Assembly: GCA_003155795.1 (NCBI GenBank)
Contig: PMEM01000021.1
Location: forward strand, 19,002-83,001
Direction: 5' to 3'
Origin: Gemmatimonadota bacterium
GTDB taxonomy: Bacteria > Gemmatimonadota > Gemmatimonadetes > Gemmatimonadales > Gemmatimonadaceae
DNA: 64,000 nt
Part shown: positions 28,976-58,151 of the stretch, one piece after another
Layout: every line of letters starts with the position of its first letter
Position numbering within the stretch: position 1 is the stretch's first letter
Position numbers and translations under genes: made by a program
The notes under the pieces: generated by a model
Databases searched by the model: none
Told to the model about the DNA's origin: nothing
What the model saw: only the letters and a program-made list of their open reading frames with translations

Positions 28976-31036
28976 ATGAAGCGCACCATGACAACGGGGA
29001 TCTTTATTCTTCTGGCTCCCGTCGCCATTTCCGCCCAGGGTTGGAACTCGCAGCGCGCTGAAAGCCTTGCTACCCATGCCACGGAAGTTCGGGCGGCACA
29101 ACTCGCGGACAGTGGTCTCAAGAGCTACAAGGCCGAGGCGCGTGGCTATCTCACGTTTCTGGCACAACTCGGCAAGGGCTTTCCCGATCCGCCTAAAATT
29201 GTCAGGGCCGACCAGATCGCCTCAGATATCTACTGGAAGGCGCCTTCCCTGAGCAAGCAGCTAATCAAGGGGCGGCGGGATACGCTGCTGCTCCCGACAG
29301 ATATCAATTATCATCGGGACCACCTTGGAATCGTCCAGAACAACTTCCCGAGCATCATCCGAATTGGTGACGGCGACGAGGTCGAGGACGTTCCGCATCC
29401 GCTTTCCGCCTCAGGGCTCAGAGACTACGACTTTGCCATCGGGGACTCACTTCAGATTCGACTCGGCAGCCGAACGTTGGATGTGATCCAGCTGCGGTTC
29501 CGTCCCAAGGACCAGAATGCGGCGCGGGCCATCGGCTCCGTTTACGTGGATAGGGAGAGCGGGGCGGTGGTGCGGATGGCAATCGGATTCACGAGGGCGG
29601 CGCTCAGGGACAAGGATCTGGAGGATCTCTCGGTCATACTCGAGAGTGGTCTGATCGACGGACGCTACTGGCTGCCTCGGCGTCAGGAAGTCGAGATCCG
29701 TCGTACAGGGACGTGGCTCGACTATCCAGCGCGGGGAATCATTCGCGGACGGTGGGACATTGACGACTACCAGGTGAATGTTCCTGTTGACGCCGTGTTC
29801 GATGCCGGACCCGAAATTCAAGCCGCGCGCGGGGCGACCGTCACGCGAGACGGTCTCGTACGTACGAGGGAGTTCAGTTTCACTGGTGCGATACTGGACT
29901 CAATTCCGCCAGACGTCAGTTCGTTTGCGAGCGGCGATGTGTCGCGACTGCATGAGGAAGTCAGTAGTCTCGTCCGCGCGAAAACTGTTGAGCGTGCACA
30001 GAACTTTGCGCTCGCAGGATCTTCGGTATCGCAGTTCGTGCACGTGAATCGTGTAGAGGGAATTGCACTTGGTGTCGGGGCGACTGTGCATCCGACGCCG
30101 CAGTTGTCGGTAAATGCCGGTACGGGTTTCGGATTTGCGGACCATGCATGGAAACCGCGTGGCTCGGCGACTTACACCATGGCGAACGGTACAAGCGTGA
30201 CGGCGTCAGCTTATCGCACACTGCACGACGTATCGATTGTACCGGAACGGTCGGGTTTGACAAATAGTTTTGCGGCGCAGGAATTTGGAAGTGACTTCGC
30301 GGGGCTATTCAGCGCGCGTGGCGGATCCCTGGCGCTCGGTGCACCGTCCGGCATGACGATTCGGCCGACGCTGGAGTTTGCGCTGGAGGACCAGGGCATG
30401 GTGCCGGTGAACGCTGTGCCGGCATCGGGGCGCTATGAGGCCGCGCAGCCAGCGACAGCGCTCCGTCAGGCGCGTGCGACGTTGCATCTCGACGCGCCGC
30501 GCTTCGATCTGTTTGGTATGAGCGCGAACGCAGCGCTCTCGCTCTCAGCTATCCATGATCGCGAAGACTCGGGTGCACAATTCACGTCCGAGCGAGGGAA
30601 GGGAATTGCGACGCTTGCCGCAACGCGAAACGTTGGCAGCGGGCAACTGGCGCTTTCCTTCCTCGCAGCTGGTCTCACCAACTCGCAGCAGACTCCTCCA
30701 CAGGAGTTGATCGGACTCGGCGGTCCGATAACGGCGCCCGGATACGACTTCCATTCACTTGTTGGCAGTCGCGTCGCGGCTGCACACGTCGAATGGAGAT
30801 TCAAGATTCCCTTCGTCGCTGTTCCCCTCGGATCGTGGGGTCGAGCGCCCGCCACCGCAACGCTCGCTCCGTTCGTGCACACGGCGTGGGTCGACGGCAA
30901 GGGATGGTATCCGAGCATCGGAACGGGTGCGCTCACGGTATTTGACCTGTTGCGCTTCGACGTTGCGCGGGGGACGCGAGATGGAAGGTGGAGTTTTTAC
31001 TTCGATGTGAGCCGGGATTTCTGGGCGATTCTGTAG
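28976..31036 (+). CDS. Outer-membrane beta-barrel protein, unknown function
   Basis: 686 residues with a signal peptide (MKRTMTTGIFILLAPVAISAQ). Residues 40-300 are mixed alpha/beta with a GSVYVDRESGAVVRM strand pair, reminiscent of periplasmic domains seen before porin-like barrels. Residues 330-686 alternate hydrophobic and polar residues with many aromatic/Gly turns and end in a strand with a C-terminal FWAIL, consistent with BAM recognition. GAGGG directly abuts the first ATG, so the second ATG at 28988 may be used, but the first keeps the Lys-Arg of the signal. Its promoter must overlap trpE. Confidence 0.75.
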   Translation: MKRTMTTGIFILLAPVAISAQGWNSQRAESLATHATEVRAAQLADSGLKSYKAEARGYLTFLAQLGKGFPDPPKIVRADQIASDIYWKAPSLSKQLIKGRRDTLLLPTDINYHRDHLGIVQNNFPSIIRIGDGDEVEDVPHPLSASGLRDYDFAIGDSLQIRLGSRTLDVIQLRFRPKDQNAARAIGSVYVDRESGAVVRMAIGFTRAALRDKDLEDLSVILESGLIDGRYWLPRRQEVEIRRTGTWLDYPARGIIRGRWDIDDYQVNVPVDAVFDAGPEIQAARGATVTRDGLVRTREFSFTGAILDSIPPDVSSFASGDVSRLHEEVSSLVRAKTVERAQNFALAGSSVSQFVHVNRVEGIALGVGATVHPTPQLSVNAGTGFGFADHAWKPRGSATYTMANGTSVTASAYRTLHDVSIVPERSGLTNSFAAQEFGSDFAGLFSARGGSLALGAPSGMTIRPTLEFALEDQGMVPVNAVPASGRYEAAQPATALRQARATLHLDAPRFDLFGMSANAALSLSAIHDREDSGAQFTSERGKGIATLAATRNVGSGQLALSFLAAGLTNSQQTPPQELIGLGGPITAPGYDFHSLVGSRVAAAHVEWRFKIPFVAVPLGSWGRAPATATLAPFVHTAWVDGKGWYPSIGTGALTVFDLLRFDVARGTRDGRWSFYFDVSRDFWAIL

Positions 31037-31173: not shown

Positions 31174-32376
31174 ATGATAACAGTTCCCTCGGATCGCTCC
31201 CAGCGACGCTGGTTGATCGTTCTCTACGTATCGAGTGCCGTAATCGTCACGATCCAGCGCGGCGTACTTCGATTTCCGAACGATTACGCCATCTTTCGCG
31301 CGTCGTTCTGGAACCTGCTTCACGGTCGCGATCTTTACGCGCTTCACCTGGATCAAGCTCGCGACGTCTTTAAGTACAGTCCAACGTTCGCGGCCCTGAT
31401 GGCACCGCTATCGCTGCTGCCGATGACCGCTGGACTGTTGATCTGGAATCTCATCGGAGCATTGTCGCTGGTATATGCAGCGGCGCGACTTCTCCCGGAA
31501 CCCAAGGCGAATATCGTGCTGTTGCTTGCATATCTGCCGATGCTGCGCAACATGCAGAGTACACAGAGCAACACTCTGATTACCGCGCTGATAATATTGA
31601 GTTTCGTTATGTTGGAACGAGGAGCGCACTGGCGGGCGGCCCTTGCCGTTGGTATTGGAGCGGCGATCAAGATCTTTCCATTAGCAGCGCTATCCTTCGC
31701 AATCCCGCATCGTCACCGCACGCGCTTCGTGGCATGGTTCACCGCAATTGCAATCATTCTGTTGGCGCTTCCACTGCTTTTTACTTCGACGGGGCGACTC
31801 GCAGCGCAATACCACTCCTGGGGAGTGCGCGAAGGACGCGACATGCAGGATTACGGCGAGAGTGTTATGGCAATGGTGCAGCTCTGGCTGGGCCGCGATT
31901 GGGCCGCGTGGCCGACGCAGCTTGCAGGAACGATTGTGCTCTTGCTGCCCCTGTGTTTCAGGCCATCGATCTGGACGCGATCGACCGAAATCCGCGTGCG
32001 CCTCCTTGCATCAGTGCTCGTCTATTGTGTGATCTTCAACCATAAGGCCGAGCCGCAATCGTACGTCATAGCGCTCACCGGCATTGCGATCTGGTACAGC
32101 ATAGCGCCGCGGAGCCGCTGGCGAATGGGATTGTTGGCGGTCGTCCTGATCCTGACATCTGGACTGAGCCCCGTCCCTGACTTCATCAAGGCGCCCCTGA
32201 CGCCTTTGATCCGACGTCCACTTCCGTGCTTTATCGCGTGGATCGTAATGCAGGTTGAACTGATTGCCGCGATTCATTCGTTCGCTCTGGATCGGGATCG
32301 CGACTCAGAGACGCACCGATCCACGATTCACGAGCTCGATGCTGCACTGCCGGATGCGGCTGCGCAGTCAAGGTGA
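31174..32376 (+). CDS. Polytopic membrane protein, GT87/DUF2029-like mannosyltransferase
   Basis: About 400 residues with roughly ten hydrophobic helices. The first loop carries NDYAIFRASFWNLLHGRDLYALH and FKYSPTFAALMAPLS, the Asp-containing pattern of GT-C DUF2029/GT87 enzymes that use polyprenyl-phosphate sugars. The frame opens at 30988 inside the upstream gene, but the added 62 residues have no membrane character, so I use the ATG at 31174; a GGAGG lies too far upstream to decide. Topology resembles PimE-like transferases. The 134-base convergent gap after it (32377-32510) holds nothing I recognise. Confidence 0.8.
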   Translation: MITVPSDRSQRRWLIVLYVSSAVIVTIQRGVLRFPNDYAIFRASFWNLLHGRDLYALHLDQARDVFKYSPTFAALMAPLSLLPMTAGLLIWNLIGALSLVYAAARLLPEPKANIVLLLAYLPMLRNMQSTQSNTLITALIILSFVMLERGAHWRAALAVGIGAAIKIFPLAALSFAIPHRHRTRFVAWFTAIAIILLALPLLFTSTGRLAAQYHSWGVREGRDMQDYGESVMAMVQLWLGRDWAAWPTQLAGTIVLLLPLCFRPSIWTRSTEIRVRLLASVLVYCVIFNHKAEPQSYVIALTGIAIWYSIAPRSRWRMGLLAVVLILTSGLSPVPDFIKAPLTPLIRRPLPCFIAWIVMQVELIAAIHSFALDRDRDSETHRSTIHELDAALPDAAAQSR

Positions 32377-32510: not shown

Positions 32511-34802
32511 TTAGAGAACCCTGAGCACATCCTCAGCCGGCCCCGCATCGCCGCTTCCGAGCAGCTTCTTGATCTCCGAGAGCGACTGACCTGCCCTGGG
32601 CCACGTGAATCGGGCCGGCGCGTCATCAATGTTGAGCCACACGTATTCCGAATGCTCTGGTCCGATTCTCACGGTGCTGCCGCTGTCCACGAATGCGCAG
32701 AACACGACGGCAACCTCAATGCGTGCCGTTTTGTGCAGGTAGAAGGAGTGCACGGTGACGTTGTATAGTCGTTGCGGCGTCAGGCCGGTCTCCTCAAGGA
32801 CCTCGCGTAATGCGGCATCCTGGGCGACCTCTTCCGGCTCGATCTTGCCGTGAACGGCCTCCCAGGTCCCGCCGCGGCTCGTTCCCGGGGCACGGTGCAG
32901 GGCAAGCACGCGCCATGGCTCAAGTTGGGGATCGACCAGGTAAACATCCACTACACCGACTTCAATTCGTGTCATGGGATCGACTAGTGCACGCGAAATG
33001 ATGGAATTCGACCGCGTCTCCTGATCTGAATATGGCGAATTGTTGCGCGAATTGGACTCCAGATCCTGCCATTCGTCCTGTCGCTCGTAATTCACACTCT
33101 CATGGTCTTCGTCAGTATTTGCGTCAGAATCGAGAACTCGGGCAACTTCGGCAGACGTCGTCTCTCCACTAAGGACTCTGGCCACGCCGCTGGACCAGAG
33201 AGACCGCATCCCTTCAGCGCGGGCTGCCTCTGCGAGCACGACGGCTGAAGCGCCTTCGACGATGAGCCGCGTCAGGCCCGTCGTCATCGTCAGCAACTCG
33301 ACGGCCGCCATGCGACCACGGAAGCCGCTGCCGGCGCATGCATCACACCCGGCACCAGCTCTAAGCCTGGCGCCATTCGGAATGCAGTTCCACAATGACG
33401 GCGGAACGGGGTCTGAAGTATCGCGCGCACATGCAGGACACATGCGCCGCAGCAATCGCTGCGCAATTACTCCCTTGAGCGCGGTACCTACTTTCGCAGG
33501 TTCCACTCCCAGGTCGGCGAGTCTCGTGATTGAGCTCGCTGCGTCGATCGTGTGAAGCGTTGCAAAGACAAGGTGTCCAGTGAGTGCGGCCTGAATAGCA
33601 ACAGCGGCGGTTTCGGCGTCTCGAATCTCGCCCACGAGAATGACATCCGGATCCTGCCGCAATATGGATCGTAGCGCCGCCGCAAAAGTGAGTCCGGCCT
33701 TTTCGTTTACCTGCGACTGTACTATGCCTGCAATTCGATACTCTACCGGGTCCTCGACGGTAATGACGTTCAATCCGCGCGAGACGAGGGAGTGCAAAGC
33801 CGAATAAAGCGTCGTGGTCTTTCCGGATCCGGTGGGTCCTGTGACAAGTATGAGTCCGTCGCGTGTCTCGAGCAGCCGAATAAGTCGTGCCGCGTCGACT
33901 GAATCGAAGCCGAGTGCGTCCAGCGGCCGCACACCACCGCGCGCGTCGAGAATGCGAATCACGACCTTCTCGCCATGCGCAGCTGGCAGCGAGGAAACTC
34001 GCAGATCGATGCGCTCGCCCTCTACCATGACAAGAGCACGACCCCCCTGTGGCCGCAGTCGGTCCGCGATGTCCATCCGCGCCATTATCTTAACGCGCGA
34101 CACGAGCGGCGTGCCGATGGATCGCGGCAACGTCATTGCAGTACGGAGTACACCATCGACGCGGTATCGCACGAGCACCGCATCTTCCTCTGCCTCCAGA
34201 TGTATATCACTCGCGCGCGCCGAGATTCCCTCTGCGACGATATGATCCACCAGTCGGATGATCGGCCGCTCACGTGCACCATCTGCGAGTTGGGTCGCGG
34301 ATAATTCCTCTCCCTCTGGTTCGAGCTGATGGATTGACACGGGGCCGACGGACGCAAGCAGGCGCTCGACCACCGAGGCCGGCCGGTAAACTTCCTCGAG
34401 CCTCTCAGCGATCCGCGCTGGAACCGCGAGCGACATTCGCACGCGCCGCCCCGCCGCGAACGCAACCGCCTGTTCGCAGTCCAGATCGTACGGATTCGCC
34501 GTTGCAACATCGATTGTGCGTGCCGAAACCGAGAGCGGGAGAATCGAATACCTGCGCGCAAGGCGTTCCGGCACCCTGGCGACCGCCTGGGGCGACGACT
34601 TCAACTCACCAGCCACCCGCATCCGGGTTCGCGATGCAACGGCGCGAAGTATTGCGTCGTCCGTCGTGAATCCACGCGACACCGCAGACAGCCAGTTGCT
34701 CGCAGAAACATCCTTGGCGAGAATTCCAAATTGGACCGGCGTCAGCAGCTCACGCAACACCGGCAGGATCCACTCATCACTCGATTGTACTGCGCGCTCC
34801 AT
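32511..34802 (-). CDS. GspE/PilB-type secretion ATPase fused to a C-terminal Nudix hydrolase
   Basis: 763 residues in one open frame. Residues 1-150 form the type II/IV pilus ATPase N-domain. The motor has GPTGSGKT (Walker A, 322-329), the Asp box around VEDPVEY (349-354), Walker B PDVILVGEIRD (385-395), the His box ATLHT and a zinc CPAC...CDAC module (455-489). After a polar Asp/Glu/Asn/Ser linker (about 558-605) a complete Nudix domain follows, with box residues G652, E658 and REVLEETGL (666-674). Met610 could serve as an internal start for a free Nudix enzyme. No other secretion or pilus gene lies in the window. It follows the thioredoxin-like gene by 77 bases. Confidence 0.88.
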   Translation of the reverse strand: MERAVQSSDEWILPVLRELLTPVQFGILAKDVSASNWLSAVSRGFTTDDAILRAVASRTRMRVAGELKSSPQAVARVPERLARRYSILPLSVSARTIDVATANPYDLDCEQAVAFAAGRRVRMSLAVPARIAERLEEVYRPASVVERLLASVGPVSIHQLEPEGEELSATQLADGARERPIIRLVDHIVAEGISARASDIHLEAEEDAVLVRYRVDGVLRTAMTLPRSIGTPLVSRVKIMARMDIADRLRPQGGRALVMVEGERIDLRVSSLPAAHGEKVVIRILDARGGVRPLDALGFDSVDAARLIRLLETRDGLILVTGPTGSGKTTTLYSALHSLVSRGLNVITVEDPVEYRIAGIVQSQVNEKAGLTFAAALRSILRQDPDVILVGEIRDAETAAVAIQAALTGHLVFATLHTIDAASSITRLADLGVEPAKVGTALKGVIAQRLLRRMCPACARDTSDPVPPSLWNCIPNGARLRAGAGCDACAGSGFRGRMAAVELLTMTTGLTRLIVEGASAVVLAEAARAEGMRSLWSSGVARVLSGETTSAEVARVLDSDANTDEDHESVNYERQDEWQDLESNSRNNSPYSDQETRSNSIISRALVDPMTRIEVGVVDVYLVDPQLEPWRVLALHRAPGTSRGGTWEAVHGKIEPEEVAQDAALREVLEETGLTPQRLYNVTVHSFYLHKTARIEVAVVFCAFVDSGSTVRIGPEHSEYVWLNIDDAPARFTWPRAGQSLSEIKKLLGSGDAGPAEDVLRVL

Positions 34803-34879
34803 TCAAGCCCCCGTCTTCGACCAACCTCAACGTAGGCCGGACGAGCCGAGACGGCGGAAGCCGGAAGCCTGCCACATCA

Positions 34880-35440
34880 TCAGCCTGTTGCGGTGGCCAG
34901 TACGACTGGAGTGCGCGGCGCCCTGGTGCCGAATACCATGTCGGTGATCTCCCGCATCGAGCTGACCCCGTGATCGCGCGCGAACCACTGTCGCTTGTAG
35001 AGATATTTCTCTGGCTTCGGTATGTTGCGTCCGGTTTCCATGTACCAGTTCCACAATTCCGACGGAAGCGGCCCCCACCAACCGCGCTCGGTCCAGTCGG
35101 AGTTGTACGCGATGATGACCGGGATGGATTGGGTCCCGTTAGTCAGATGAGAGTTCATCAGGTGGAGATTCTCATCGCGAACAAAATTCCGAAGCTCGAC
35201 GAGCGGATTCAACTCCGCGAGCTTGGCGAGATGCGGAACGACCCCGATCGCGTCGAGGCACCAATCCGCGTGGAGAGCGACCAGCCGGAGCGGTGTGGTT
35301 ATGGCTGAGAACCGCTCGATCACGTCTGCCGGTACTGCCGCGTGTCGGGCGCCGATCGACCAGAGTTCCGGGTATTTCTGGACCGACCCTACAAAATCAT
35401 CGAAGGTCACGCCCGTCGCAAAGCGCGCCGCGTCCATCAT
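34880..35440 (-). CDS. Thioredoxin-like protein with a single-Cys active site
   Basis: 186 residues. The central LRLVALHADWCLDAIGVVPHLAKL strand-helix matches thioredoxin-fold proteins, but the CxxC site reads CLDA with only the first Cys kept. The cis-Pro loop is seen as GTQSIPVII. A single Cys suggests a monothiol role or binding function rather than disulfide exchange. The start overlaps the acyltransferase stop by ATGA. Confidence 0.8.
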   Translation of the reverse strand: MMDAARFATGVTFDDFVGSVQKYPELWSIGARHAAVPADVIERFSAITTPLRLVALHADWCLDAIGVVPHLAKLAELNPLVELRNFVRDENLHLMNSHLTNGTQSIPVIIAYNSDWTERGWWGPLPSELWNWYMETGRNIPKPEKYLYKRQWFARDHGVSSMREITDMVFGTRAPRTPVVLATATG

Positions 35441-36270
35441 GGCTTTGCCGGTTTGATAGTTGTCAGATGGAAGACGTCGTGCGGCGCATTGGGCTTCACG
35501 CGAATACTCTTGGCCGGGATTCCGACATGAACATGGTATGGTCGGACATCCTTCGTCGCAATGGCACCGGCTCCGACCATGCCATTCTCACCGACGTGAA
35601 CTCCGGCAAGCACCGTTGCGTGATATGTGATGCGTACATCGTCGTCGATCCGCGTCACCGCATCGGTTACGTCGCGCTGATCCACTATGCTGTGAGTGTG
35701 ACTGTAGATGTTCGCGTAATCGCTGATGGAGACGCGATTCCCGATCACCAGGCCGCCGCGATCGTCGAGCAGAACGTGTCGATGGATGACGACGTCGTCG
35801 CCAACTTCCAGATTATAGCCGAACGAAAACTCAACATTCTGAAAAGCCTTGAAATTCTCGCCGCACCGCTTGAAGATGTGCGGTGCCAGCAGCCGGCGAA
35901 AACGAATCCCGAGATCCACATTCTGACCACCGAGCTGAGTTCGATCGAACGAATACCAAAGCCATAACAGCGGCTTGGTACGCGCGAATGCGACCGGATC
36001 GCAGTCCGCGTAGTATTCCGGCTCGAGCGTGACGTTTCGCGGGTCCAGCGAGAGCAGTGCGAGCCGCGTCGCGACGTCGAGGGAGTCATCGGCAACCGCT
36101 GTCTCCCAGGCATCCGAATACTCCGGATACAGCAGCGCAGAGAGTACCCGTCGGCAGATGTCGTTGCGATCATCGGACGAGTCAAGAGCGTCCTCGATCT
36201 CTTCGAGAAACGCGCGCTTTTGCGGTTCGATCGGCGATTCCGCAAGCTTGCGGAGAGGAAGTATGGCCAT
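35437..36270 (-). CDS. Left-handed beta-helix acyltransferase
   Basis: 277 residues. The first 110 are helical. From about 140 the hexapeptide repeats begin (LEVGDDVVIHRHVLLDDRGGLVIGNRVSISDYANIYSH), then VLAGVHVGENGMVGAGAIATKDVRPYHVHVGIPAKSIRVK, the closing pattern of NodL/LacA/CysE-like O-acetyltransferases. The conserved His in SHTHS is the likely catalytic base. Substrate unknown; sugar or glycolipid acetylation would fit an envelope role. It begins 11 bases after the lipoprotein gene upstream. Confidence 0.85.
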   Translation of the reverse strand: MAILPLRKLAESPIEPQKRAFLEEIEDALDSSDDRNDICRRVLSALLYPEYSDAWETAVADDSLDVATRLALLSLDPRNVTLEPEYYADCDPVAFARTKPLLWLWYSFDRTQLGGQNVDLGIRFRRLLAPHIFKRCGENFKAFQNVEFSFGYNLEVGDDVVIHRHVLLDDRGGLVIGNRVSISDYANIYSHTHSIVDQRDVTDAVTRIDDDVRITYHATVLAGVHVGENGMVGAGAIATKDVRPYHVHVGIPAKSIRVKPNAPHDVFHLTTIKPAKP

Positions 36271-51020: not shown

Positions 51021-53162
<2,142 letters not shown>

Positions 53163-56558: not shown

Positions 56559-58151
56559 TCATGCCGCCTCGATGTGCACCGGGACGCCGAGCGTCGCTTC
56601 GAGGAGGTCGGCTTTTCGAGACGCTCCCCACAATTCGAGCCGCAAGTCATAAGCGTACGCGGCGGGAGTGGCCTTGATCCGGAGCTCCGACCGCGTGAGT
56701 TCGATCGCGATGTCCTCGACGGCGCCGGCGTGGCCACGATCGAGGCCGTCGGCGACGCGAAAGATCGCTGCGAGTCTTTTAATTCGTCGCCGAAGTTGAC
56801 GATCGAGTGCCGCGTAGCCGCGATGTGACGATCTCGGGACCGATCCGCGGTGGTATCGCGCGACGTTCGCGACCATCACGCGCTCGGTCGGCGTCATACC
56901 GAGCAGCTCGGCATGAAGGATCAGGTGATAGGAATGCTTGTGGTGCGCTTCGAAGTTTATGTGATAACCGATGTCATGAAGCAGCGCCGCGTCAGCCAGC
57001 ACCCTGCGATCGTCTGGTTCTAGCTCGAGTCGTTCAGAAAGCGCGTCAAATATCTTGAGGGCGATGCGCTGCACTTGTTGCGCATGCGGCGCTTCGTAAT
57101 GACATCGCTCGGCGAGTTGCAACACCGATCGAATCCTCGCCTCGCCAGCATCGGCAACCGCCGGGGTCACGCGTGCGGCTTCCAGGAGCAGGCCTTCGCG
57201 GATTCCGAATGCCGATACTACCATCTCTCTCGCCTCAATGCGCGCCAAGACTTCAGCCGCCACGGCGAGGCCCGCCACGATTATGTCTGCACGCGCTGGC
57301 GATAGTCCCGGGACCGCCTGTCGCTCCGAAGCAGACATGCCCTGAAGCAAGTCGAGTACAAGCTCCAGCTCTGCGCGAGTAACGAGCGCGCCGTGCACAC
57401 CCGGCCCGCGAGGCATTCCCTGACGAGCCAGTATTATTCTGGCGAGGTTGGTGAATGTCCCTCCCGATCCAAACAGTCGCGCTCCATGCCAGTCACGCCG
57501 CGACACCGATGCGCGGAGTTCCTTGCGCGCGAATTTGCGCAGTGCCTGCAACTCCTTGTGGCCGCGATTCTTTCCAAAGAACCGTTCGGTCATGCGGATT
57601 GCACCGAGCGGGAAGGAAAGCAGCCCGTCGAGAAGACCATCTGCGCTGAGGGCGAGCTCGAGCGAGCCACCGCCAATATCCATGACTACTGCTCTACCAG
57701 TAGCCAGGTCGAAGTGAGCTAGCGCACTGCGATAGGCCAGCATCGCTTCTTCATCGCCGTCTAGAATGCGGACTGTAATTCCAGCTGTATCGCGCACTGC
57801 GGCAATGAACTCGGGCCCGTTCTCTGCGTCCCGGACGGCACTCGTCGCCACGGCTTCGGTCCGCACGGCGCCGAGCTGACGGGTGAGCACCGACATCCTG
57901 AGGAGGGCTGCGAGGGCGTTGCGCACTGCCGATTCACTTAGCCGGCCCGTCTCGTCGACTCCCTCGCCGAGGCGCGGGGCTGCTTTCATCTCGTCAAGGA
58001 CGCGGATACTTCCATCGCGTGAAACGTCGGCGACGATCTGACGGATGGAGTTTGATCCGATGCTGATGGCTGCAATGCGGACCTCGTCATCCCGCGGAGG
58101 CGGTCTCCGTGGGTGGAGAGCAGGATCGAATTGGTCGGACTCTTCGGTCAT
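56559..58151 (-). CDS. ppx: Ppx/GppA exopolyphosphatase with C-terminal HD domain
   Basis: 530 residues. The N-terminal ASKHA fold has AISIGSNSIRQIV, the catalytic-Glu region TEAVATSAVRDAENGPEF and VVMDIGGGSLELAL. The C-terminal half is an HD-type helical domain (ALLHDIGYHINFEAHHKHSYHLI). It releases phosphate from polyphosphate or hydrolyses pppGpp. The first loop reads I-S-I-G-S-N-S, where most family members have an Asp in place of the first Ser. It starts beyond the pst operon terminator, 64 bases upstream of deoC. Confidence 0.9.
   Translation of the reverse strand: MTEESDQFDPALHPRRPPPRDDEVRIAAISIGSNSIRQIVADVSRDGSIRVLDEMKAAPRLGEGVDETGRLSESAVRNALAALLRMSVLTRQLGAVRTEAVATSAVRDAENGPEFIAAVRDTAGITVRILDGDEEAMLAYRSALAHFDLATGRAVVMDIGGGSLELALSADGLLDGLLSFPLGAIRMTERFFGKNRGHKELQALRKFARKELRASVSRRDWHGARLFGSGGTFTNLARIILARQGMPRGPGVHGALVTRAELELVLDLLQGMSASERQAVPGLSPARADIIVAGLAVAAEVLARIEAREMVVSAFGIREGLLLEAARVTPAVADAGEARIRSVLQLAERCHYEAPHAQQVQRIALKIFDALSERLELEPDDRRVLADAALLHDIGYHINFEAHHKHSYHLILHAELLGMTPTERVMVANVARYHRGSVPRSSHRGYAALDRQLRRRIKRLAAIFRVADGLDRGHAGAVEDIAIELTRSELRIKATPAAYAYDLRLELWGASRKADLLEATLGVPVHIEAA

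Follow-up and report, generated by a model that had tools for sequence, protein, structure and literature searches.

Apparent replacement of a receiver domain by a neighbouring Nudix hydrolase in orphan GspE/PilB-type motor ATPases of one Gemmatimonadota family

The GspE, PilB and MshE extension ATPases of type II secretion systems and type IV pili share an MshEN domain and a T2SSE domain with Walker A, Asp box and Walker B motifs and a tetracysteine module, and those MshEN domains that bind c-di-GMP are marked by two 24-residue motifs beginning with RLGxx (PMC5013675). Orphan motors of Gemmatimonadota (GspE-REC) have the same ATPase architecture, but end in a CheY-like receiver. The literature also mentions a c-di-GMP binder in which a motor-type N-terminal domain is linked with two-component signalling; its description does not mention Nudix. 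Among Nudix hydrolases, the closest described groups are MTH1/MutT and NudB, which contain the complete Nudix box. Among the open-access papers searched (on Nudix with GspE, on secretion ATPase fusions and on GspE with receiver or output domains), none describes the attachment of a Nudix domain to a GspE-type motor, in line with a previous sequence-only reading of this DNA, which knew of no enzyme with such a domain order.

The window, that is, the entire stretch of 64,000 nucleotides analyzed here (C11:19002-83001, from a 3.98 Mb genome of a Gemmatimonadota bacterium), encodes such a protein in an uninterrupted frame of 763 residues on the minus strand (32511-34802), on which all features of the protein given below are located. 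The frame comprises MshEN (residues 66-142, 34377-34607; PF05157, 56.2 bits), the GspE/PilB-type ATPase domain T2SSE (residues 178-555, 33138-34271; PF00437, 405 bits) and a Nudix hydrolase domain (residues 617-733, 32604-32954; PF00293, 57.3 bits), all exceeding the curated Pfam cut-offs of 23.1, 24.9 and 21.1 bits, respectively. The motor motifs are intact, namely, Walker A (GPTGSGKT, residues 322-329, 33816-33839), the Asp box, Walker B and both CxxC pairs of the zinc module (CPAC and CDAC, residues 455-458 and 486-489, 33336-33440), and the ATPase retains the residues for ATP hydrolysis. The Nudix box GKIEPEEVAQDAALREVLEETG (residues 652-674, 32781-32849) is intact as well, matching GX5EX7REUXEEXGU. 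An AlphaFold2 model built from an alignment of 31 fused homologs consists of two confident parts, with pLDDT below 50 exactly at the linker between them (residues 561-609, 32976-33122). The fusion in the window is genuine and connects two complete domains via a predicted disordered tether; the unbroken frame, the complete ATPase and the complete Nudix box had all been correctly recognized before. The linker, 49 residues long, also holds up as a disordered tether, but its acidic character, to which the sequence-only reading had drawn attention, is peculiar to the window sequence and not a general trait.

A search for the two-domain architecture in related genomes, as the earlier reading had proposed, recovered the same fused frame in 36 genomes (the present one and 35 others) from nine genera: g1, g2, g5, g7, g10, g11, g14 (a single genome), g15 and g21. 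The ATPase motifs and the Nudix box are intact in 36/36 fused copies; one CxxC pair is absent from the g7 and g2 motors. The matches in a scan of genome contigs were mostly unrelated Nudix proteins, few of them from Gemmatimonadota. The fusion is conserved across the nine genera, but the linker sequence is not: the other fused linkers are rich in proline or arginine, with an identity of only 24-32% even inside the window's genus. The linker pN/pS values range from 0.18 to 1.04 across the fused genes, mostly between 0.4 and 1.0, and from 0.76 to 0.88 within the genus of the window. For the motor, pN/pS is 0.09-0.34 in fused and 0.12-0.31 in unfused genes, and for the Nudix domain 0.09-0.42 and 0.21-0.50, respectively, which indicates that both domains are under purifying selection equal to that on the unfused forms. 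Constrained domains joined by a drifting linker are what would be expected of a tether selected only for an open reading frame.

The locus has a conserved gene order in this family and in two other families of the order, TrpE-O686-motor-Nudix-acyltransferase-O222-YsxC-Lon. At 20/20 loci fetched from the two other families, the motor frame runs on into a CheY-like receiver, and the same holds for at least 15 loci of the window's own family, with most genera there included. These receivers, which occupy the place of the linker and are absent from the window protein, keep the conserved acidic pair, the phospho-acceptor Asp and the Lys. Behind such receiver-bearing motors, Nudix is encoded by a separate gene, usually close by. 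At most split loci, this gene starts between -4 and about 150 bp from the motor stop; in six f2 loci, it starts about 2.4 kb downstream of the motor. Rooting a tree of the ATPase parts on the other families places the receiver state at the base, with the fused genes and g14 grouped in a single clade (SH-aLRT 86) beside a receiver-bearing g3 gene. Four loci in which the receiver is absent and the motors are highly divergent (L066, L072, L074 and L076, from genera g16, g31, g20 and g17) were omitted from this tree; they occupy the same locus and represent separate receiver losses without Nudix fusion. These comparisons indicate that, within one Gemmatimonadota family, the receiver was lost and the neighbouring Nudix gene was joined to the motor in its place. 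The earlier reading had missed the C-terminal receiver of the relatives, the pre-existing adjacency of the Nudix gene and the replacement of the receiver by fusion. Stop codons between the two domains, which it had taken as a sign against a real fusion, do occur in other genera, but they do not refute the fusion because those genera keep the ancestral receiver arrangement.

Some further features of the neighbourhood were recorded. In genus g1, that of the window, the motor-Nudix gene has switched orientation with respect to TrpE-O686 and acyltransferase-Lon (32511-36270); the genes next to it code for a thioredoxin-like protein (34880-35440) and a GT87 protein (31174-32376). The 686-residue protein adjoining the motor (28976-31036, plus strand), the position of which is conserved across the order, has no match in Pfam or NCBIfam. 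A folate link via the neighbouring TrpE was considered and found unsupported, TrpE scoring best with anthranilate synthase models and not with PabB. The genes for a polyphosphate kinase and an HD-domain-containing Ppx/GppA-type phosphatase (51021-53162 and 56559-58151) are separated by no more than about 3.5 kb.

In genus g14, most of the genomes fetched encode a motor whose tail measures 130-148 residues, and Nudix is a gene of its own. The receiver signature residues are missing from this tail, and its profile-profile match to receivers in hhalign is weak (probability 0.3%). AlphaFold2 models it as (beta-alpha)5 with a pLDDT of 78, and receivers account for nearly all its best matches in a PDB fold search (best E 5.6e-4, with TM 0.62 by query, 0.71 by target). 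The predicted structure and these matches decide the question: the g14 tail is a degenerate receiver. Its pN/pS is 0.46-0.71, compared with 0.12-0.42 for intact receiver tails, and the pseudo-receiver is either decaying or re-purposed. Degenerate C-terminal receivers without the phospho-acceptor site were observed at the g14 loci L070, L080, L172, L174 and L175; G112 has lost most of the tail, and G124 carries a motor-Nudix fusion.

Forcing all fused genes except that of g14 into one clade costs 92 log units (AU p 1.7e-5), which rejects a single origin of the fusion; a clade of the fused genes of g2, g10, g11, g15 and g21, by contrast, survives the same test (p 0.43). We read the split state of g14 as ancestral because this genus retains a receiver-type tail. 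Taken together, the ancestral g14 split, the rejection of one clade and the non-rejection of the second grouping imply at least three separate fusions, in g1/g5/g7, in g2/g10/g11/g15/g21 and in G124, a minimum that presumes no regain of the receiver and no transfer of the locus. A possible receiver-linker scar in the fused linkers (g15 GxxFxLRDDLD, resembling GxxFELVDD) was not significant in a profile search (E 0.085, compared with 0.17 for shuffled sequences).

The window motor differs from GspE, PilB and MshE in scoring below the NCBIfam equivalog cut-offs (512.3 against 630.25 bits for GspE, 469 against 675.65 bits for PilB), in having no partner genes nearby and in its extra C-terminal Nudix domain. 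Seven T2SSE proteins over the cut-off are encoded elsewhere in the genome. On the same contig, 85 kb from the window motor, there is a paralog (G000:C11:136774-138837, L108), a frame of 704 residues that ends in an intact-looking receiver; it was also detected in the two other same-genus genomes searched (82-83% identity), and more distant copies are scattered over the order. Both motors look like orphans because the T2SSF and secretin matches of the genome are on contigs C1, C14 and C25, with none on C11 in a profile search of the genome. A Pfam scan of 20 other window ORFs likewise yielded no T2SSF or secretin, in keeping with the statement of the sequence-only reading that no other type II secretion or pilus gene lies in these 64 kb. 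Unlike the MshE-type, c-di-GMP-binding domains, the MshEN domain of the window protein lacks the c-di-GMP motif, scoring 8/22, with shuffled sequences at 7.5 and the genome's own PilB at 20/22. Given the lack of this motif, the ancestral motor most likely received its input through receiver phosphorylation, and the fused motor, which, in contrast to the GspE-REC orthologs at this locus in other genera, has lost the receiver, has no known input remaining.

Orthologs of the Nudix enzyme are found in most genomes of the family, and 141 of the 148 genomes have some match. The best solved relatives of the domain are MTH1 (E 6e-9), and the best named family is dihydroneopterin triphosphate diphosphatase (E 7e-10). 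All equivalog cut-offs (NudB/MutT/MTH1) are missed by far, however, with 38.6 of 103 bits, which is too low for assigning a substrate; these low scores and the fusion to a motor set the window enzyme apart from the described MTH1/MutT and NudB hydrolases. In g4, g18, g23 and g25, the Nudix gene is kept at the locus with no motor, and in most of the g18 and g23 genomes searched, there is no close motor relative elsewhere (best about 1e-95, compared with 1e-120 or better). Because genera without the motor keep the gene, we read the Nudix protein as a probable housekeeping enzyme with its own job, now tethered to an orphan motor.

That a sequencing or assembly error joined two genes is extremely improbable: the draft state of the genomes, and nothing else, speaks for it, and it would have to recur in 36 independent genomes, three of them from the genus of the window besides the window itself. 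Not one in-frame stop occurs in the 36 fused linkers, whereas their two other frames have 60 and 54, so the open fused frame is beyond chance. With an intact fused frame in that many genomes, artefact or a missed stop is excluded as the source of the fusion; G133 (L060), which looked fused but has a shifted motor frame, was excluded from the count. It seems improbable, too, that the cell makes a separate Nudix protein, either by internal initiation at Met610 (32973-32975) or by proteolysis of the linker. The disordered linker could be cleaved, the unfused Nudix genes have their start codons at the position of Met610 in the alignment, and two of three same-genus relatives have a Shine-Dalgarno-like sequence before this site (-5.5 kcal/mol). 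Yet there is none before Met610 in the window copy (+0.3), 7/36 fused genes have no ATG, GTG or TTG within three codons of the site, and the Nudix starts of fused genes are no more and no less Shine-Dalgarno-like than those of unfused ones (p 0.85). Internal initiation at Met610, suggested by the sequence-only reading, is thus not conserved, and Met610 itself is a vestige of the codon at which the ancestral Nudix gene started.

We favor, with a probability of about 0.6, passive tethering, in which an orphan motor lost its receiver and was joined to the Nudix enzyme without coming under its regulation. An orphan GspE/PilB-type motor, presumably hexameric by analogy with its described relatives, would once have ended in a phosphorylatable receiver; deletion of the receiver would have fused it in frame with the adjacent gene, which encoded a stand-alone Nudix hydrolase, on no fewer than three occasions within one Gemmatimonadota family. 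Motor and Nudix would be made as a single chain, the ATPase would still act as a motor, now without two-component input, and the Nudix domain, on a floppy tether of about 15-70 residues, would keep its ancestral nucleotide cleavage in the cytoplasm beside the motor ring. Its chemistry would, we infer, be unchanged, with no effect on the motor. Repeated fusion and long adjacency, however, are classically expected of functionally linked genes, and a passive tether requires no such link. As the main alternative, we regard it as a tentative possibility that the Nudix domain acts as a newly gained regulatory or local metabolic module, one that clears or senses a nucleotide at the motor and so replaces the receiver as control input. 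It takes the C-terminal place of the receiver in each of the independent events, its box and the ATPase motifs are preserved in every fused copy, the old start codon is gone in several lineages, making the fusion obligatory there, and, with an MshEN domain devoid of the c-di-GMP motif, no other input is visible. Against this, the linker drifts almost freely, the Nudix family is conserved in the absence of the motor, and the adjacency is older than the fusion, so that repeated deletions suffice for repeated fusion. Doubtful, in our assessment, is the stronger proposition that the phosphorylation switch of the motor was repeatedly swapped for Nudix and that the nucleotide on which Nudix acts controls or reports motor activity.

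Intact, decayed and lost receivers and fusions with the neighbour coexist in one bacterial family, which amounts to a domain exchange caught in progress. The family therefore offers a natural experiment on the gain and loss of control domains by motor ATPases, in which repeated fusion reflects either function or mere repeated deletion between neighbours. These loci also point to a little-studied class of proteins, the orphan receiver-bearing motors of Gemmatimonadota.
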